From a virus, in IMG/VR virus record IMGVR_UViG_3300020377_000030, positions 1-23,814 of that record: a stretch of DNA of 23,814 nucleotides, one strand, 5' to 3'. Positions 2,652 through 13,001 of this stretch are shown here, piece by piece. Below the pieces are notes generated by a model. That model was not told the origin of the DNA, did no database searches, and worked only from the letters and a program-made list of their open reading frames with translations. Position 1 is the stretch's first letter; every line of letters begins with the position of its first letter. The position numbers and the translations under genes are program-made.

Positions 2652-4238
2652 ATGGGCTTAAGAAACGCTTGGAGAGGCTTATTTACCTCTAAAAAAGATG
2701 CATTTTCGCAAAAAAAACCTTTTAGAAGGCGTGCATACGCAGGTGCAAAAACAGATAGATTAACTTCAAGTTGGGTAACAAGAACAACATCTGCTGATCA
2801 GGAATGGTCATCATCTATATCTACATTAAGATCGCGTGTTCATCAGTTAGTTCGTGATAATAATTATGCAGCACAGGCTATAAGATTATCTACAAATCAA
2901 ATTGTGGGAACAGGAGTAAGATTACAGGCGCAGGTAAAAAAAGTTAGAGGAGGTAAGTTAGATACTCGTATAAACGAACAGATAGAAAGTCAATGGTCAA
3001 TGTGGGGTAGAAAAGATAGTTGTGATGTTCGTGGTGTGCTTTGTTTTAGTGAATTAGAAAGATTAGCGATAAGAGGAATGATTGAATCTGGAGAATCTTT
3101 TGTTATTATTCATAGAAAAAATTTAGGTAGAAGTAAAATACCATTTGCATTAGAAGTTATAGAAGCAGATCAATTAGATGAGGATTATAAAGGTACAACC
3201 TTACAGCCAGGTAATACTTGGCGATTAGGTATAGAGCTAAATCAATTTAAGAGGGCAGTTCGTTATGCTTTTCTTACTAAGCATCCTGGTGATTCAAACT
3301 TTACTACACCTGCTGGCACTAAAAGACATGTAATTATAGATGCAAAAGATGTGTTGCATTTGTTTTTACCACAAAGACCAGGACAGCATCGTGGTATTCC
3401 TTGGTTATCTTCTACTATCCAACATCTGCATCAGTTAGATGGCATGATCGAGGCCACATTAATTAATGCGAGAGCATCCAGTGCTTTGATGGGATTTATT
3501 ACAACTCCAGAAGGAGAGTTAGATCCTGGTGGTGAGGTTTATGATTACGACAGAGTAACAAGTTTTGAACCAGGGCAATTTAAGTACTTAGAACCTGGTT
3601 CATCTGTAACGATACCTGATATGGGTAAACCTAACAGTGAATTTGAAACATTTGTAAGAACTATGCTTAGATCTATGGCATCTGGTCTTGGTTGTAGTTT
3701 TGAAGGTATAAGTTCTGACTATTCACAATCTAATTACAGTTCAAGCAGACTTTCTTTATTACAGGATCGTGATCACTGGCGTACTGTACAACAGATGTTG
3801 AAGGAAAACTTCTATCAACCCATGTATGAATCATGGTTAGAGATGGCTGTAATGTCTGGGGCGTTAGTGCTACCAACTTATGAGACAGAACCAGAAAGGT
3901 ATGAAAAGATTAGATGGGTATGCAGAGGATATTCATATGTAGATCCACAGAGAGAAGTAGAGGCACAGAAAAATGCAGTTAGATCTGGATTTAAGACACT
4001 TGGAGATTGTGTTTCTGAGAATGGTGGTGATTTAGATGAATTATTAGTAGCGAGACAGTCAGAGTTAGCTAAATTAGATGAGATGAATATTGTCTTAGAC
4101 ACTGATCCATCTGCTGTTAACAAGTCTGGTGGTTCTCAGTTTAAACCTATAGGTAGCGTAGATCCATTTGGTGATACGCTAGAACCGTCAGGTGAAGATG
4201 CAGAAAACGTAGGAGAAGAATCAAGTGGCAACTATTAA
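2652..4238 (+). CDS. Portal protein (lambda gpB family)
   Basis: This 528-residue protein is close in length to lambda gpB. The portal is the dodecameric ring at one capsid vertex through which DNA enters and leaves. The N-terminal region has the family pattern of an arginine-rich segment, then LRSRVHQLVRDNNYAAQAI and NQIVGTGVRLQAQV (about 62-100). The centre has FALEVIEADQLDEDY and KDVLHLFLPQRPGQHRGIPW, also typical. The acidic C-terminal tail after about residue 480 is low-complexity. A strong ribosome-binding site, AAGGAG at 2641-2646, sits 5 bases before the ATG. The last 14 bases overlap the start of the protease-capsid gene, whose own ribosome-binding site lies inside this coding region. 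No separate lambda-C-type protease follows, because that activity is inside the next gene. Confidence 0.95.
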   Translation: MGLRNAWRGLFTSKKDAFSQKKPFRRRAYAGAKTDRLTSSWVTRTTSADQEWSSSISTLRSRVHQLVRDNNYAAQAIRLSTNQIVGTGVRLQAQVKKVRGGKLDTRINEQIESQWSMWGRKDSCDVRGVLCFSELERLAIRGMIESGESFVIIHRKNLGRSKIPFALEVIEADQLDEDYKGTTLQPGNTWRLGIELNQFKRAVRYAFLTKHPGDSNFTTPAGTKRHVIIDAKDVLHLFLPQRPGQHRGIPWLSSTIQHLHQLDGMIEATLINARASSALMGFITTPEGELDPGGEVYDYDRVTSFEPGQFKYLEPGSSVTIPDMGKPNSEFETFVRTMLRSMASGLGCSFEGISSDYSQSNYSSSRLSLLQDRDHWRTVQQMLKENFYQPMYESWLEMAVMSGALVLPTYETEPERYEKIRWVCRGYSYVDPQREVEAQKNAVRSGFKTLGDCVSENGGDLDELLVARQSELAKLDEMNIVLDTDPSAVNKSGGSQFKPIGSVDPFGDTLEPSGEDAENVGEESSGNY

Positions 4239-6807
4239 TGGCACTGAAATAAATCTTATGCCTACAGAAGGCATGAGAAATGCAGCAAAAAGATATCGTG
4301 AATTTAAAAAACAAGGAAGAAAAGGTGGTACTGAAGTAGCAGCAAGAAGAGCAACGCAGATATTAAGTGGTAATGAGTTAAGTCCAGATGTTGTCATAGA
4401 AATGAATGCTTGGTTTGCAAGACATGCTGTAGATAAAAAAGCAGAAGGATTTAAGCAAGGCGAAAAAGGTTATCCAAGTCCAGGCAAAGTTGCAAATTTA
4501 GCTTGGGGTGGATCTGCGGGCGAGAGTTTTTCAAAGGCAAAATCAGCTAGAATAAAAGAACTTAGATCTATTAATGTGACTGATTCAGAAAATCGAGCAG
4601 CCCCTGATGCTCTAAAAGTAGGTGATTTTGTACGTTGGAACTCTAGTGGTGGTACGGCTAGAGGTCAGATAGATCGTATTGAACGTGACGGAACTATAGA
4701 TGTACCAGATTCCAGTTTTACTATTACAGGTACTGCTGATGACCCTGCTGCATTAATTACCTTGTATAGAGATGGTGAGGCTACAGACAGAAAAGTAGGC
4801 CATAAATTTTCTACCTTGACTAAAATCCCAGCAATTAGATCTATAAACGAGTCTTTCAAACGTGCAGGTGAAACAAAATTTAACAAAGTAGAGGAAAGAA
4901 TATATGAGTTTCCATTTTCTTCTGAATTTGCAGTGCCAAGATCATTTGGAAATGAAATACTTTCTCACGAAAACGATGCTGCTGACTTAAAAAGACTTAA
5001 TGATTCTGCACCCTTGTTATTTAATCATGACACTGACAAAGTTATAGGTGTAGTAGAAAGGGCATATGTTGATAAAAAGAAGAAAAAAGGTGTTTCAAGA
5101 GTAAGATTTGCACAAACTGCCTTTGCTGATGAGATTCGTGGAATGGTGTCAGATGGCATTTTAAGGAACGTTAGTACTGGATATCGCATTTTAGAGATGG
5201 AAGAACGTGAAATAGATGGAAATAGTGCTTTTGTCGCATCTCGATGGGAGCCTTATGAAGTCAGTATTGTGGCTACGCCTGCTGACACCTCAGTTGGTAT
5301 AGGTCGGTCTTTATTAGAGACTGATACTATGACTATTGAGGAAAATAAGTCTACAATTGACGATAAGCGTACAAACGCAACTGAGGCTTCTGTCTCACCT
5401 CCTGTAAACATTATTTCTGAAAACGAAATGACCGATCAACCAAATTTAGAGGTTGTGCGTTCAGAGGCTAAAAAACAAGCTGCTTCTGAAGAACGTACAA
5501 GAATAAGAGAGATTACTGCATTATGCGGTAAGCATGGCTTTGAGGACATGGGCGAATCTATGATCGCTAATGGCACTTCAATAAACGAAGCAAGAGCAAA
5601 TGTTCTTGAAAAGTTAGGTGCTAAGTCACCAGAGGTGCAAACTGTTACTCCAGTAGAAAGTCAGTTCTCAGCAAAAGAAGAAAGAGAATACAGAAATACA
5701 GACTTTGTTTCTGGTGGTATTGCTGCTCTTATAGATGGCAATTGGGATAGACCTGGTGCTGGTTTTGCAAGAGAGCTTTCACAGGAAGTACAACGTCAGG
5801 GATATCATCGGAATGCTGGTGGCAAGACATTATTCTTACCATTCTCTGCATTATCAACTCAAAAAAGAGCTACATATGTAACTTCTAGTGCTAATACTGG
5901 CGGTAACATCGTTGCTACAGATTTAAGAGCAGATGATTTTATCGAAGCATTAAGAAATAACACTGTAATGGTGAATCTTGGTGTTCAAGTACTATCTGGT
6001 CTTATTGGTGATGTTGCAATCCCAAGAAGATCTGGTGTTGCTTCTACTGGATATTTATCATCTGAAACAACAGCGATTTCTCAAGCAGAATCTACATTTG
6101 ATCAGATTTCAATGACACCAAAGACTTTAGCAAGTCTGTCAAAATTCTCTAGAAATATGCTCATACAGGCAACTCCTGGTATTGAGGATCTAGTAAGAAG
6201 AGATTTATCTGATAGTATTAACTTAGGAATTGATCTTGGTATCTTGAACGGATCTGGTTCATCAGGTCAGCCTACAGGTATCATGAACACTTCTGGTATT
6301 GGTTCAGTTGCAATCGGTACTAATGGTGGTGCTATTACTCTTGAAAAGATTGTTGATCTTGAGACAGCAATCATGGAAGATAATGCAGGTGTTAATGCAG
6401 ATAACATTGCTTATGTAACAAACGCAAAAGTAATGGGTGCATTGAAGAAACTAAGAGCAGGTGGTTCTACAACTGGTGATGGTGCATTCTTATACAATGC
6501 AGACCTATCAGCTATCGGTAGAGGTGCTACTCCTGGTGTTCTTAATGGATATCCAGTAGCAATGACAAACCAAGTTCCAAGCAACCTTACAAAAGGTTCT
6601 AGTTCTGGTGTTTGTTCTGCTGTTGTTATGGGAGACTTCTCACAGGCAATTCTTGGATTGTTCGGTGGTGGTATCGAAGTAACAGTTGGTGAGGATAGTG
6701 ATGACTTCAGCAAGAACTTAACTTCTGTAAAAGCTGTAGTTGCATTTGATGTTGCCATACGTCATGCACAGTCATTTGCTGCTATAAAAGATGTGACAAC
6801 TGCATAA
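4225..6807 (+). CDS. Capsid polyprotein: accessory domains + Tudor-like domain + HK97 prohead protease + scaffold + major capsid protein
   Basis: A single 860-residue frame carries several units. Residues 1 to about 115 contain the motif LSPDVVIEMNAWFARHAVDK and a later YPSPGK/LAWGG segment, a domain I have seen in phage proteins without assigned function. About 129-200 is a small SH3/Tudor-like domain resembling DUF2945 (KVGDFVRWNSSGGTARG). About 220-362 is a HK97-type (U35) prohead protease with candidate catalytic H268 (LLFNHD) and S317 (NVSTGYR), closing with EPYEVSIVATPADT. About 363-490 is charged and helix-rich, a likely delta-domain scaffold. From about 493 to the end is a HK97-fold major capsid protein. 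GTG is chosen as start because AGGAGAA lies about 8 bases upstream; the first in-frame ATG is 33 bases later without such a site. Protease-capsid fusions are known; this fuller architecture is the odd part. Confidence 0.93.
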   Translation: MATINGTEINLMPTEGMRNAAKRYREFKKQGRKGGTEVAARRATQILSGNELSPDVVIEMNAWFARHAVDKKAEGFKQGEKGYPSPGKVANLAWGGSAGESFSKAKSARIKELRSINVTDSENRAAPDALKVGDFVRWNSSGGTARGQIDRIERDGTIDVPDSSFTITGTADDPAALITLYRDGEATDRKVGHKFSTLTKIPAIRSINESFKRAGETKFNKVEERIYEFPFSSEFAVPRSFGNEILSHENDAADLKRLNDSAPLLFNHDTDKVIGVVERAYVDKKKKKGVSRVRFAQTAFADEIRGMVSDGILRNVSTGYRILEMEEREIDGNSAFVASRWEPYEVSIVATPADTSVGIGRSLLETDTMTIEENKSTIDDKRTNATEASVSPPVNIISENEMTDQPNLEVVRSEAKKQAASEERTRIREITALCGKHGFEDMGESMIANGTSINEARANVLEKLGAKSPEVQTVTPVESQFSAKEEREYRNTDFVSGGIAALIDGNWDRPGAGFARELSQEVQRQGYHRNAGGKTLFLPFSALSTQKRATYVTSSANTGGNIVATDLRADDFIEALRNNTVMVNLGVQVLSGLIGDVAIPRRSGVASTGYLSSETTAISQAESTFDQISMTPKTLASLSKFSRNMLIQATPGIEDLVRRDLSDSINLGIDLGILNGSGSSGQPTGIMNTSGIGSVAIGTNGGAITLEKIVDLETAIMEDNAGVNADNIAYVTNAKVMGALKKLRAGGSTTGDGAFLYNADLSAIGRGATPGVLNGYPVAMTNQVPSNLTKGSSSGVCSAVVMGDFSQAILGLFGGGIEVTVGEDSDDFSKNLTSVKAVVAFDVAIRHAQSFAAIKDVTTA

Positions 6808-7725: not shown

Positions 7726-7878
7726 ATGGCTAAAATTAGTAAAGAAGTTCCAAATCCAGGTACAGGTGGAACATATATGTTCGATCCTGAAACTGGGGAA
7801 ACTACACTAGTACCAGAAACCGATTCCTCTAACGACAATGGCTCTAACAAGAACGACAAAACTACTAGCAAAGATTGA
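7726..7878 (+). CDS. Small 50-residue protein overlapping the start of the tail tube gene
   Basis: An ATG at 7726, 4 bases after the previous stop, opens 50 codons ending TGA at 7876-7878. The product begins MAKISKEVPNPGTGGTY, continues MFDPETGETTLVPET and ends in a polar Ser/Asn/Lys-rich tail. The last 41 bases overlap the tube gene in another frame. I judge it real for three reasons: it fills an otherwise empty 116-base gap, it matches the tight packing, and short proteins with a 'GTGG.Y..dp.tG' core are familiar to me just before phage tail tube genes. The tube gene has no ribosome-binding site of its own, so translation here may feed ribosomes into it. The function is unknown. Confidence 0.6.
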   Translation: MAKISKEVPNPGTGGTYMFDPETGETTLVPETDSSNDNGSNKNDKTTSKD

Positions 7879-8779
7879 ATCATCATATGGGAGTAATTCA
7901 ACTCCTGTTGCTGGATCAAATGCTATACAGGTTACTGACATAGAAGTAACACCAATAGAATCTGACAACGTACAGGCTACTGCCTTTCAAGGTTTTATTG
8001 GAAACAGTACAAGACCTACATTGCTCGCAAACAAAAGAGTTGCAGTATCATTTGGTGCTGAACTTTCTGGCAGTGGTGCAGCAGGTACGGCAAGTGCGCT
8101 TTCTCCTTTGCTGAAAAGTTGTGGTTTATCTGAAACAATTGTAGGTTCTACCAGTGTTACTTATGCACCTGTCAGTGCTTCTTTTTCTAGTTGTACAATT
8201 CTTTGCTTTTATGGTGCTACAAGACATTTAATAACAGGATGCAGAGGAACAGCGACTATAACAATGGCAGCAGGTTCATTTGCACAGATTAATTTTGAAT
8301 TTACTGGTATTTATAACAGCCCTGATAGCACAGCAATGTCTGGTACATTCACTGTTGCAAACCAAGCTGCTGCGATAGAGGTAAATGATACTAACGTCAC
8401 TACTGCAACATTTCATGGTGCAACTTCACAGAGGTTAGAATCCTTTGACCTTGCATTAAACAATGAGGTTGTTTACAAAGAAACTGCATCTAGCAAGGAA
8501 GTATTGATAACAAATCGTGCGCCTGGGGGTACTGCTGTTCTAGAAGAACCAGTAAGAGCAACAACAGATTATTTTAGTAAGGCAGAAACTGCTGCAACAG
8601 GTAATAGTTCTATTGTTCTTGGATCTAGTGCAGGTAATATTGTTACTGTTAATGTTCCTCAGACTGATATAACAGGTGTTAGTCGTGGTGATACAAATGG
8701 TGTTAATTCATTAAACCTACCGTACTTGGCATTACCAACAACAGCAGGTAATAATGAGTTAAGTATTGTTATGACTTAA
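7838..8779 (+). CDS. Major tail tube protein (gpV-type)
   Basis: This 313-residue protein has the pattern of siphophage tube subunits. It opens TKLLAKIESSYGSNSTPVAG, then shows an ELSGSGAAGTASALSPLLKS-like segment, SSCTILCFYGATRHLITGCR and a GRGT-like strand region ending in INFEFTGIYNSP (to about residue 167). This first half is the tube fold, which stacks as hexamer rings to form the DNA conduit. The second half (about 170-313) is a Ser/Thr/Ala-rich beta region, probably a surface-exposed or second tube-like domain. The start is the ATG at 7838, within the preceding small gene. No Shine-Dalgarno sequence is visible, so coupled re-initiation is likely. Confidence 0.88.
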   Translation: MALTRTTKLLAKIESSYGSNSTPVAGSNAIQVTDIEVTPIESDNVQATAFQGFIGNSTRPTLLANKRVAVSFGAELSGSGAAGTASALSPLLKSCGLSETIVGSTSVTYAPVSASFSSCTILCFYGATRHLITGCRGTATITMAAGSFAQINFEFTGIYNSPDSTAMSGTFTVANQAAAIEVNDTNVTTATFHGATSQRLESFDLALNNEVVYKETASSKEVLITNRAPGGTAVLEEPVRATTDYFSKAETAATGNSSIVLGSSAGNIVTVNVPQTDITGVSRGDTNGVNSLNLPYLALPTTAGNNELSIVMT

Positions 8780-8782
8780 TTT

Positions 8783-9106
8783 ATGGCACTTGTTTTTAAA
8801 AAAATCGCTGAGTATGAATGGCAGGTAAAAGTTAAAACACCATATAAAGGTAAATTTAAAGAGGAAAGTTTTACTGCTAAATTTAAAAATGTTGGCAGAA
8901 AAAACTTTAATGAACTTATAGATGGTGGTGATGATCACTTTGTAAAAACTGTTCTACTCGGCTGGTCTGGTATTAAAGACGAGGATGGTAATGAGGTTGA
9001 ATTTAATGATGAAAACTTTGAGGCGATATTAGATAACGTATATATTGTTCAAGCCGTTATTGCTGCCTATGGTGAAAGCATGCAGGGAGCATTGGCAAAA
9101 AACTAG
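8783..9106 (+). CDS. Tail assembly chaperone, unshifted product (gpG-like)
   Basis: This 107-residue protein lies between tube and tape measure genes, the slot of lambda G. It opens ALVFKKIAEYEWQVKVKTPY, with an EDGNEVEFNDENFEAILD segment later, as in small chaperones that hold the tape measure protein and recruit tube subunits. They are needed for assembly and are absent from the finished virion. Its last sense codons are AAA AAC, directly before TAG at 9104-9106, and form the slippery site from which a second, longer product is made. The gap to the tube gene is 3 bases. Confidence 0.85.
   Translation: MALVFKKIAEYEWQVKVKTPYKGKFKEESFTAKFKNVGRKNFNELIDGGDDHFVKTVLLGWSGIKDEDGNEVEFNDENFEAILDNVYIVQAVIAAYGESMQGALAKN
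9097..9103 (+). promoter_or_regulatory. Programmed -1 ribosomal frameshift slippery heptamer (A AAA AAC)
   Basis: The heptamer A AAA AAC lies exactly in the reading frame of the 8783 gene, one codon before its stop. It allows both tRNAs to re-pair one base back and enter the frame of the downstream T-like segment. A purine-rich AGGGAG at 9084-9089, 7 bases upstream, could act as an internal Shine-Dalgarno-like stimulator, as known for dnaX. Confidence 0.88.
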
Positions 9107-9441
9107 AAAGGGCTGCTGAGTATTGGGTGAAGGGTGATGTTATAGATGAAAGTGCAGAAGCTTTAGCAGCCTTTGGTGCTACGCCAGAACAGATAGCAGA
9201 TATGGTTAGTCCTGTTAATAATGATGTTGTTATATGGATAGAAAATAAGGAAATTGTAGAAATGTTTTTTAGATTAACAACACAATGGTATGTCAGTATG
9301 GCAGGTTTATCTGGTATTAACTATTCATCTTACGAATATCTGTGTAAACTATATTCAGTAGAAGATCCTGTCTCTATGTTTGAAGGAATACAGACAATGG
9401 AATATGCTGCACTTAGAATGATGCAAAAGGATAAGAAATAA
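9103..9441 (+). CDS. Tail assembly chaperone, frameshift extension (gpT-like; part of G-T fusion)
   Basis: This frame supplies 112 residues made only as a C-terminal extension of the 8783 gene, reached by a -1 slip. The fusion is 8783-9103 joined to 9103-9441, 219 residues. After the slip the reading is LERAAEYWVKGDVIDESAEA, then LAAFGATPEQIADM, then FFRLTTQWYVSMAGLSGINY. The 'AAEYW' start and 'F..l.tQW....aGl.G..Y' core are the DUF1799 pattern seen as the T half of GT proteins. The earliest start-like codon is a GTG at 9127 without a ribosome-binding site, and the first in-frame ATG is at 9202, inside the conserved part. Independent initiation is therefore unlikely. The stop overlaps the tape measure start (TAATG). 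Confidence 0.88.
   Translation, partial: LERAAEYWVKGDVIDESAEALAAFGATPEQIADMVSPVNNDVVIWIENKEIVEMFFRLTTQWYVSMAGLSGINYSSYEYLCKLYSVEDPVSMFEGIQTMEYAALRMMQKDKK
9108..9174 (+). promoter_or_regulatory. Frameshift-stimulating stem-loop downstream of the slippery site
   Basis: Bases 9108-9117 (AAGGGCTGCT) pair with 9165-9174 (AGCAGCCTTT), giving ten consecutive pairs with one G-U, seven of them in the solid core GGCTGCT/AGCAGCC. The stem begins 4 bases after the heptamer, or 7 if only the core forms, which is the spacing at which such stems stimulate slippage. The 47-base loop is long and may hold inner structure or form a pseudoknot. Confidence 0.55.
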
Positions 9442-11681
9442 TGGCTGATCAAAAAACACAATTAGACGTAATATTAAATGTTAAAGGTGTAAAAGAACTT
9501 CGTGGTTTAACAAATTCATTACAAGGACTAAAAAATAATGCAAAAAATGCTGGATTAGATACTAAAAAATTTACACAAGAATTAAGAAAACTACAAAGTG
9601 AGGGTGTTAATTCAATAAATAGAACTAGAGCTTTATCAAATACTTATAAAGAATTAGCAAATAGTGTTGATATAACTTCTAGAGAATTTAAAGAAGCAAC
9701 TAGAGAAGCTAGAAGATTGGATAGAGAGTTAGCAAAAATGGAAAGAAGAAAAACTACTGGAGGACGAGCAAGAGGATTAGCAAGAGGATTAGGAGCAGTC
9801 GCAGCAGGTGGTGTTTTTGGAGGGGTAGAGGGTCTAGTTGGAGGAGGTATAGGTTTAGCTGTTACTGGAAATGCCTTTGGAGCAGCAGCAGGTGCAGCTA
9901 TTGGTGCGCAAGTTGGTCAACTGCGTAAATCTATTGGTGAGATTGGTGTATACACTGCGTCTTTAAAACAACAGAAATTTGCATTAGCTTTAGTTGTAAA
10001 AGACACTGAAAAATTTAATAAAGCACAAGAATTTCTTGCTAAGACTAGTGAAAAATTAGCAATACCACAAGATGTCATAGTAAGACAATTTACGTCCTTA
10101 ACAGCATCAGTCGTTGGTGCAGGTAAATCAGTAGAAGATGCACAAGAGGTATTTTTATCAATCGCTTCTGGTATTAGAGGTACTGGTGGATCATTAGAAG
10201 ATATGCGGGCAGCTATGGTTGCTACAAGTCAGGTATTTAGTAAGGGTAAGGTATCGGCCGAAGAGCTTAGACAACAGCTTGGTGAAAGACTCCCAGGATC
10301 TTTTACATTATTCGCAGCATCAATGGATAAAACACCTAGACAATTAGATAAAGCATTAGAGCAAGGTAAGGTTACATTAGATGATTTTATGGGTTTTGCA
10401 AAACATCTTTTTGCTAATTATGGAAAAAATGCAGAAATTTTAGCATCATCTCCAGCAGCAGCAGGTGATAGATTAGCAACAGAATTTAGTAAGTTCAAAG
10501 AAAACTTTGGTGGATTGTTTGCAAATATAGGTGCAGGTTTTCAAGATACAACAACTAAAATTATTGGTTTTTTAAATGATAATGAGAAAGCTATAAAAAA
10601 ATTCATAACTGGTTTTGTTAATAATCTTGGTGGAATAAAACGTGTATTAACGAAAGTTGCAACTGATATAGCAAATATTGTTAGTGGTATATTTAAATCT
10701 TTTACAACAGTAGTTACGAAGATATTTAATAAGGTGGCTGAAATGATCAATAAACTTATAGAAGCATTAGGTGACACATTAGAAGGTTTTAAAAAAATAC
10801 CTGTTTTAGGACAATTTATTGAAAATATTCAAACAACATCATTTATACCAACAATTGATCCAGATACTAAAAAAACAATAAATAATGCATTGCAACCTGC
10901 TGTAGATTATAAAGATGAATTAGAAAAAATATTTAAACAATCAGGTAAAACTGTAGAGGAAGTTTTTGGTTCACCAGAATTTGATGCAGCAGTAGAAAAA
11001 ATTATAAAACAAAAACAAGCTACAGAAGAACTTAATGCTGCTACTAAAGATTTAGGTAAAACAACTTCAAAGGTATTTGATGGTATGAAAGGTGGTGCGC
11101 AAGACTATCTAAACTCAATAAAAGAGGTAGGCAAACAAATACAAGATGCTTTTGTTAGTGCATTTAAAGGGATGGAGGATGCTTTTGTAAATTTTGTAAT
11201 GACAGGAAAATTAAATTTTAAAGATTTAGCACGTTCAATAATTGCAGATATAACAAGAATAGTAGTCAGACAAAAACTTATGACTCCATTATTAGGTGGT
11301 ATTAATAGTTTATTTGGTTTAGATCTAAAGCTGAATGCAAAAGGAAACGCATTTGGAGCAAATGCAATTATTCCTTACGCAAAAGGTGGCGTAGTTTCAC
11401 AACCTCAACTTTTTAAATTTTCTACAGGAGGCTCTGGAAAACTAGGAATTATGGGCGAGGGTGGCGCACCAGAGGCAATACTACCTTTAAAACGTGGTCG
11501 TTCTGGTAATCTAGGTGTTGAGTCATCAGGTACCTCAACTAATATTGTTGTAAACGTAGATGCATCAGGTTCTTCTGTAGAAGGTAGTAATGAAAATGCA
11601 AATCAATTTGGTGAGCAACTTGCATCTGCAATACAAGCTGTAATTATAAATGAAAAACGATCAGGAGGTTTACTAAATTAA
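9441..11681 (+). CDS. Tail tape measure protein (lambda gpH family)
   Basis: This 746-residue protein sets tail length and is ejected during infection. The N-terminus (1 to about 110) is charged and helical. A glycine/alanine-rich hydrophobic stretch follows at about 112-165 (GLARGLGAVAAGGVFGG onward), a likely membrane-inserting segment. The 'tape_meas_nterm' type region (about 170-330) includes VEDAQEVFLSIASGIRGTGG and LRQQLGERLPGSFTLFAASM. Near the C-terminus (about 582-615) lies VNFVMTGKLNFKDLARSIIA followed by ITRIVVRQKLM, the hallmark of lambda-family tape measures, then a glycine-rich end. From length alone, using about 0.15 nm per residue, a tail near 110 nm is expected (inference). 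Short overlaps with its neighbours place it in the same transcript. Confidence 0.95.
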   Translation: MADQKTQLDVILNVKGVKELRGLTNSLQGLKNNAKNAGLDTKKFTQELRKLQSEGVNSINRTRALSNTYKELANSVDITSREFKEATREARRLDRELAKMERRKTTGGRARGLARGLGAVAAGGVFGGVEGLVGGGIGLAVTGNAFGAAAGAAIGAQVGQLRKSIGEIGVYTASLKQQKFALALVVKDTEKFNKAQEFLAKTSEKLAIPQDVIVRQFTSLTASVVGAGKSVEDAQEVFLSIASGIRGTGGSLEDMRAAMVATSQVFSKGKVSAEELRQQLGERLPGSFTLFAASMDKTPRQLDKALEQGKVTLDDFMGFAKHLFANYGKNAEILASSPAAAGDRLATEFSKFKENFGGLFANIGAGFQDTTTKIIGFLNDNEKAIKKFITGFVNNLGGIKRVLTKVATDIANIVSGIFKSFTTVVTKIFNKVAEMINKLIEALGDTLEGFKKIPVLGQFIENIQTTSFIPTIDPDTKKTINNALQPAVDYKDELEKIFKQSGKTVEEVFGSPEFDAAVEKIIKQKQATEELNAATKDLGKTTSKVFDGMKGGAQDYLNSIKEVGKQIQDAFVSAFKGMEDAFVNFVMTGKLNFKDLARSIIADITRIVVRQKLMTPLLGGINSLFGLDLKLNAKGNAFGANAIIPYAKGGVVSQPQLFKFSTGGSGKLGIMGEGGAPEAILPLKRGRSGNLGVESSGTSTNIVVNVDASGSSVEGSNENANQFGEQLASAIQAVIINEKRSGGLLN

Positions 11682-12031: not shown

Positions 12032-12654
12032 TGGCAATTCCTTTTGTTGAGCTAAATAAAATAAATCCAAGTTCTATTATCGAGTTATTTGAACTTGAAC
12101 TGACTGTTGGTACACACATAGTTGCTGGCAATCCACAAAGCTTGCCTACTGTGTATAGATTTCATGCTGGTGCAAATCTAAACAATTTTGGTGAAGTAAT
12201 ATTTCAATCAAATTCTTATCAAAGAGTAGCGGTACAAATAGAAGGTTTCGAAAAGAAAAGCACAGGCACTATCTCAAGACCAACAATTACTTTTTCTAAT
12301 TTAGGTGGTATAGTTCAAAATTCATCAACAGGTTTAGTTATAACAATGAGTGATTTTTTAAATAGTGTGAATCAAGTTACCCCACATAATGATTTGATAG
12401 GTGCAAAGCTTACTAGAAAAATGCCGCTTGCTTCTGCCTTAGACAACTCAAATTTCTCATCTGGTTCTAATCCGTTTGGCACTCCAAGTTCTGATAGATT
12501 GCGTGATGAAATATATGTAATTGATAGAAAAGCTGTTGAAAATAGGCAAGTTGTACAATTTGAACTTACTGCTGCAAACGACTTGGAAAATAGGGAAATA
12601 CCTCAGAGAGTAGTCACCAGAGATTTATTCCCTGCTGTTGGAACATTTGTCTAA
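12031..12654 (+). CDS. Minor tail protein L (gpL-like) lacking the iron-sulphur C-terminal domain
   Basis: This 207-residue protein fits the N-terminal part of lambda gpL. It has INPSSIIELFELEL at the start, a central strand GFEKKSTGTISRPTITFSNL, then GAKLTRKM and a strand carrying VQFELTAANDLENREIPQRV. In lambda the next part is a cysteine-rich tail that binds an iron-sulphur cluster. Here the protein stops after VVTRDLFPAVGTFV and has no cysteine at all. The following gene starts on the stop codon (TAATG), so the missing portion is not simply out of frame next door. gpL forms a ring of the tail tip between M and the J/I complex. I infer that its ring function is kept and the cluster domain is lost or replaced. 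Confidence 0.88.
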   Translation: MAIPFVELNKINPSSIIELFELELTVGTHIVAGNPQSLPTVYRFHAGANLNNFGEVIFQSNSYQRVAVQIEGFEKKSTGTISRPTITFSNLGGIVQNSSTGLVITMSDFLNSVNQVTPHNDLIGAKLTRKMPLASALDNSNFSSGSNPFGTPSSDRLRDEIYVIDRKAVENRQVVQFELTAANDLENREIPQRVVTRDLFPAVGTFV

Positions 12655-13001
12655 TGACAGAATATAAATGGGCTACAGATGCTTTTGAACACGCTTTAGA
12701 GTGTGATAAAGAGGAATCATGTGGATTAATAATTGATATAGATGGTATTGAAACCTATTGGAAATGTAAAAATATATCAGGTACATATAAAGAGAAGTCA
12801 TTTGTTATAGACCCTTTAGATTATGCAAGTGGTGAAGATCAAGGAGAAGTTCTTGGTATCGTGCATAGCCATCCTGATGGAGAAATGGCCTTTAGTCATG
12901 CTGATAAAATAAGCTGTAAGTTTAATGATTTACCTTTTTATCTTGTTGAACCAAAAACAGAGTCTATTATTGTTTTATATCCTTCTGAAATAAATGATTA
13001 A
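12654..13001 (+). CDS. Tail assembly protein K, JAMM (Mov34) metallopeptidase domain only
   Basis: This 115-residue protein carries a complete JAMM motif. E21 sits in EESCGLI, H71 and H73 in GIVHSHPDGEMAFSHADK, with S81 and D84 completing H-x-H-x7-S-x2-D. It aligns with the N-terminal half of lambda gpK. The gpK C-terminal NlpC/P60 cell-wall peptidase is absent and is not encoded elsewhere in the window. JAMM peptidases in phages sit next to gpI, whose N-terminus is ubiquitin-like, and are proposed to process it. That pairing is kept here, since gpI overlaps by 8 bases. The start shares bases with the gpL stop. All metal and catalytic residues are present, so it should be active. Confidence 0.92.
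   Translation: MTEYKWATDAFEHALECDKEESCGLIIDIDGIETYWKCKNISGTYKEKSFVIDPLDYASGEDQGEVLGIVHSHPDGEMAFSHADKISCKFNDLPFYLVEPKTESIIVLYPSEIND

Follow-up and report, generated by a model that had tools for sequence, protein, structure and literature searches.

The tail region of an uncultured virus very probably carries a site for programmed −1 ribosomal frameshifting like that of lambda G/GT, and the 3′ arm of the helix predicted to stimulate the shift lies at one of three places among its relatives. The analysed DNA (the window) is a 23,814-base record with a lambda-like tail order of tube, G, T and tape measure genes, from a lineage that we take to be marine phage, partly on the basis of its named relatives. 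A frameshift of this sort is standard textbook material for phages, and meeting it in this uncultured lineage is no surprise; the G/GT frameshift itself is of a known kind, and no account of a 3′ arm that changes place was found in the open-licence literature searched.

The features of the tail region described here lie on the plus strand. Two overlapping frames are found, from open reading frames and Pfam matches, between the major tail tube gene (7838–8779, in the gpV position; Pfam Phage_tube_2, PF18906, E-value of 2.5e-10) and the tape measure gene (9441–11681, in the gpH position; Tape_meas_lam_C, E-value of 1.3e-26, and TMP_3, E-value of 2.2e-21). The 0 frame (8783–9106) encodes a probable G-like tail assembly chaperone of 107 residues that matches PHROG 569 with an E-value of 2.7e-19. 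Its match to PHROG 313, 'Tail assembly chaperone' (E-value of 7e-8), covers a short stretch, and its score with Pfam Phage_TAC_4 (PF08748) is 20.9 bits, just below the cut-off of 21.1. The T-like segment in the −1 frame (9103–9441), composed of 112 residues and a stop codon, belongs to the DUF1799 family (PF08809, E-value of 4.1e-12).

The G frame ends with GCA AAA AAC TAG, so that the slippery heptamer (9097–9103) is read as A AAA AAC in the frame of the 8783–9106 open reading frame and abuts the stop codon TAG (9104–9106). The open stretch of the −1 frame spans 9076–9441, and the preceding −1 stop codon at 9073–9075 confines the shift to a 31-base overlap, within which A AAA AAC is the heptamer of the form X XXY YYZ. 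The positions given for the heptamer, the stop codon, the frame and the stem in the initial annotation agree with the sequence, and shifting at A AAA AAC yields the 219-residue G-T fusion that it had proposed. AAAAAAC alone is not rare (the two strands of the window together contain 19, where 12.3 are expected); its position, in frame and against the stop codon, is what matters.

Relatives were collected by scans with G, with T and with alignments of both, giving 116 uncultured viral contigs with a readable junction; from one scan with at least 440 matches, 80 were taken, comprising 30 already in the set and 50 new. AAAAAAC is kept in all 117 rows (the relatives and the window), and a stop codon follows it directly in every one (TAA in 98, TAG in 18 and TGA in 1). 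Conservation of the heptamer in related phages had been named beforehand as a condition for the frameshift reading, and these rows show it without exception. On a tree of 48 distinct G and T sequences, for which 55 of 67 rows were kept and 12 that were incomplete, broken or of a different T length were dropped, no third-base changes were found at any of the seven codons from −2 to +4, compared with a mean per codon of 4.5 changes for G and 2.4 for T. Codon +1 is additionally constrained by the overlapping stop codon. Stretches of low third-base change also occur in T codons 63–102, so the invariance of the junction counts as support rather than proof. AAC is the minor asparagine codon in the genes of the window (93 of 399), and its invariance at the junction is therefore not a matter of codon bias. 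A search for relatives in bacterial genomes confirmed none. In one near relative (L025, 991–1297) the T frame breaks at codon 71, through either a genuine indel or faulty assembly.

Translation of T as a gene of its own, started at GTG 9127–9129 and joined to G by ordinary translational coupling across the overlap, is very improbable. This codon is in frame, has a G-rich sequence upstream and is the sole ATG, GTG or TTG among the first 20 T codons of the window, and some annotations do start T alone, as with gp16 of phage HK578. The start is not conserved, however: 29 of the 117 rows have GTG as T codon 9, and 87 rows are without any ATG, GTG or TTG in T codons 1–20, on which grounds an independent start at GTG 9127 was rejected. 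The residues encoded between the G stop codon and GTG 9127 are conserved in the −1 frame (L1, A5, Y7 and W8), as is the T sequence from its first codon on, and the HK578 gp16 annotation begins at a base inside the G stop codon, that is, from ATT. The invariant heptamer and the lack of a conserved separate T start thus support the −1 frameshift to a G-T fusion predicted in the initial annotation.

The junction also recurs among named phages. Among 18 named phages picked for diversity and compared at the end of G, a heptamer of the form X XXA AAC stands right before the stop codon in 15. It is AAAAAAC in 12 (Synechococcus phages S-CBS1 and S-CBS3, HK639, HK578, SO-1, Vibrio phage ZX4290, Smarc2, pAEv1818, phiES15, Silvanus, IME-JL8 and LeonhardEuler) and GGGAAAC in three (RS1, PS-1 and SBP3.1); the other three (Sonora, JVSB2 and Scapp) differ at the junction. 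A joined frameshift product is already annotated in the records of Smarc2, Silvanus, Sonora and Scapp. The records of HK578 and SO-1 hold T as a separate gene, gp16 (1462–1776 in L131 and 862–1176 in L135), annotated in both from an ATT that overlaps the stop codon of gp15; conservation of AAAAAAC in these two phages suggests an unannotated frameshift there. More broadly, DUF1799 proteins, which are often annotated as separate hypothetical proteins, may be the T halves of such fusions; no link between DUF1799 and frameshifting was found in the open-licence literature.

These comparisons also bear on transcriptional slippage, by which RNA polymerase rather than the ribosome would join the frames on the A run. 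The run comprises six A's in the window and seven in many relatives, which lends this alternative some plausibility, but it is short, the C that follows it and the adjoining helix are conserved, and the three distant relatives with GGGAAAC have no long run at the same place. We consider slippage of the polymerase highly unlikely, and ribosomal frameshifting the preferred reading.

Upstream of the heptamer, at a distance of 7 bases, lies the Shine–Dalgarno-like (SD-like) sequence AGGGAG (9084–9089). The glycine codon at position −5 is GGA or GGG in 116 of the 117 rows and GGN in the remaining one, whereas these two codons account for 227 of 637 glycine codons in the genes of the window and, across G and T of the newly added loci, for 207 of 692; such an excess suggests selection for GGRG. 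A glycine column at +96 is likewise GGA in 48 of 48 sequences, without an SD-like role. The spacing of 7 bases falls short of the 9–14 bases reported for SD-like elements of −1 shifts in the available part of PMC5009743. The G-rich element perhaps adds to pausing.

Downstream of the heptamer, the ten-pair stem described in the initial annotation (9108–9117 with 9165–9174) is present, with nine Watson–Crick pairs and one G-U pair. It begins 4 bases past the heptamer, and further G-U and A-U pairs lengthen it to 13 pairs without a break (5′ arm 9108–9120, 3′ arm 9162–9174). The duplex energy of the 5′ arm was equalled by none of 2,000 synonymous recodings drawn with the codon usage of the window and, when codon usage was taken locally from G and T, by 4 of 1,000. 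A pseudoknot, which had been suggested to hide in the 47-base loop, found no support and was rejected: the best helix between the loop and the downstream sequence reaches −2.2 kcal/mol, and 494 of 500 recodings were as good.

With these elements, most ribosomes would stop at TAG 9104 and release the 107-residue G chaperone. A minority, paused by the helix 4 bases downstream with tRNA-Lys and tRNA-Asn on A AAA AAC, would slip back by one base, pair anew with AAA AAA and continue into T, giving the 219-residue G-T protein with Lys-Asn-Leu-Glu-Arg at the junction. By analogy with lambda, G would coat the tape measure protein, to which tube subunits would be brought by the less abundant G-T protein. 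The parts of the site, their conservation and the helix-forming potential are shown by the sequences; that the shift occurs, its rate and the roles of both proteins we infer.

Among the relatives, the 5′ arm starts 4–7 bases after the heptamer, which is within or near the spacing of 5–8 bases given as usual in the accessible text of PMC4066793. The 3′ arm lies at one of three places: at +30, closing a loop of 15 bases (local hairpin); at +91 to +94, closing a loop of about 75 bases (long-range form); or at +59, which is found only in the clade of the window. The ten-pair stem is thus real in the window but confined to its clade, and the idea that all relatives share a stem at these coordinates was rejected, the 3′ arms of the relatives lying elsewhere. 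Folding 90 bases missed the stem of the relatives; folding 120 bases revealed the 3′ arm at +91. The long-range form was found in 52 distinct sequences. Its 5′ arm at +8 typically reads GGCTGCGA or GGTTGCGA and meets TCGCAGCC or TTGCAGCC at about +91; in other versions GGCTGCTG pairs with CAGCAGCC at +94 and, in one case, GAGGCTGC with GCAGCCTT. The local hairpin, typically CGCCGCT with GGCGGCG at +30, was assigned to 32 distinct sequences, one of which (L225) does not form it, and the form of the window's clade in two, with a loop of about 41–47 bases.

These stems could be by-products of an Ala/Gly-rich coding sequence, with a real frameshift brought about by the heptamer acting alone. The shift of lambda is usually described as not requiring a strong structure, and the arms coincide with Ala-Ala and Gly-Gly codons. 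The stem signal is also weak in part of the single-sequence tests: 510 of 1,000 recodings matched the stem in L192 and 739 of 1,000 in pAEv1818, and the stems of pAEv1818, S-CBS3 and SBP3.1 do not stand out against recodings. Against this stands the excess of the window stem over its recodings, together with the meeting of the arms at one of the three places in 85 of 86 distinct downstream sequences (two of the 117 rows, L083, which contains N, and L095, which is too short, were left out of this count). In the long-range form (20 of the 52 distinct sequences), 98.1% of cells are paired compared with 17.5–50.6% in the slid controls; the pairing was reached by 9 of 500 shuffles and the covariation score by 7 of 500. 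In the local form, the stem was reached by none of 1,000 recodings for IME-JL8 and by 1 of 1,000 for Vibrio phage ZX4290. We therefore regard a heptamer acting alone as unlikely, although less so than a separate T gene or polymerase slippage, and retain a stimulating helix as a probable part of the signal.

Further single-sequence results vary with the phage. The stem of L024 was matched by none of 1,000 recodings, a clear excess. S-CBS1, HK578, SO-1, IME-JL8, LeonhardEuler and Silvanus each have a local stem of their own at +7 or +8, and those of IME-JL8, LeonhardEuler and SO-1 exceed 99% of recodings. The sole failure among the 86 sequences, L225 (1501–1560), has a best local match of three pairs only and folds otherwise, with −17.9 kcal/mol over 60 bases. 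Compensatory changes in the stem, proposed in the initial annotation as a check, are scarce: covariation in the long-range set (20 of the 52 sequences) is weak, with one pair changed on both sides, and none was found in 24 of the 32 distinct local hairpins, where the core hardly varies and covariation is uninformative.

In a tree of 86 G and T proteins, labelled with 49 long-range and 32 local-hairpin rows, the clade of the window (99/96) is nested within the long-range group, with 41 long-range rows next to it and eight more outside, and the local-hairpin rows are placed outside both. The branch of the S-CBS1 outgroup is very long, which makes the root uncertain. This nesting suggests that the 3′ arm was relocated, and on the simplest account the clade of the window re-formed it some 30 bases closer in. 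A sequence in the window, TAGCAG (9194–9199), lies at the place of the 3′ arm of the long-range relatives and forms six weak pairs with 9113–9118 (−4.9 kcal/mol); it is a possible remnant of the older arm. We lean towards an evolutionary history in which the stimulating helix changes partners: the heptamer, the G-rich element and the 5′ arm (to within a few bases) would stay fixed, and the 3′ arm would be rebuilt up to 94 bases away within T, as a local, a long-range and a third version, the last derived from the long-range one.

If the helix does change partners in this way, selection would keep a helix at the entrance of the ribosome and not a particular fold. The site offers three natural helix versions behind an unchanged heptamer, with loops of 15, about 41–47 and about 75 bases, and thus a ready series for the effect of 3′-strand distance on frameshifting; the versions also bear on the way in which a stimulator can shift its place within coding DNA and still be kept. 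A survey of phage tail frameshifts was reportedly made by Xu and colleagues in 2004. In the open-licence papers searched, no account was found of a stimulator in phage tail genes that acts at long range or changes place.

The slippery heptamer of lambda is GGGAAAG, and the difference from the window that the initial annotation had pointed out holds. The window further differs from lambda in that its AAAAAAC abuts the stop codon, and in its conserved downstream stem and its T of the DUF1799 family. The shared features, as far as the accessible text of PMC5009743 goes, are two frames between the tube and tape measure genes, a −1 shift near the end of G and a G-T fusion; the same text describes the G/GT frameshift as an established feature of lambda, with wide conservation among long-tailed phages. 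It also lists A_AAA_AAC as the G-T shift site of the archaeal tailed virus HCTV-2, which is likened to the window by this listed site only and has a different, archaeal host. Further counterparts are gp15–gp16 of the Dhillonvirus phages HK578 and SO-1 and the tape measure chaperones of Tunavirus type, which share AAAAAAC with the stop codon, a DUF1799-like T in the −1 frame and a local stem starting at +7 or +8, and differ in the arm sequences and in a T identity of about 36% or less.

Escherichia coli dnaX, in which the SD-like spacing is 10, has the same three-part layout of G-rich element, A-rich heptamer and stem. The resemblance to dnaX noted in the initial annotation extends to this layout and to a stem a few bases downstream, but not to the last base of the heptamer (C instead of G) or to the spacing of 7 bases. 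In the accessible part of PMC5009743, dnaX uses AAAAAAG and its shift gives a shorter product, whereas AAAAAAC in the window would give a longer one.

Use of the heptamer A_AAA_AAC is also documented outside tail genes, in an IS1 shift that is without an established stimulator and whose product is a transposase, not a tail protein. We take the A_AAA_AAC cluster of the source cited next to be that of IS1. The part of PMC4066793 available describes it as a proven bacterial −1 shift at A_AAA_AAC, a motif of low efficiency in E. coli, which may not be the host here, yet one used by IS elements. For tail chaperones, the accessible text of PMC3711429 gives measured frameshifts of 6–7% in genes similar to one of HK97.

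Three other genes of the window were noted. A single open reading frame of 860 residues (4225–6807) fuses a prohead protease (Peptidase_S78) to a capsid domain (Phage_capsid), with a weak Hva1_TUDOR match ahead of the protease. The gpK-like protein (12654–13001) is cut down to a 115-residue JAB domain (Prok-JAB), with no space for the NlpC half of lambda K. At the end of the contig (23421–23774), a 117-residue outer-membrane β-barrel protein matches Pfam Phage_OMP (E-value of 1.1e-34), a family that is cyanophage outer membrane protein like.
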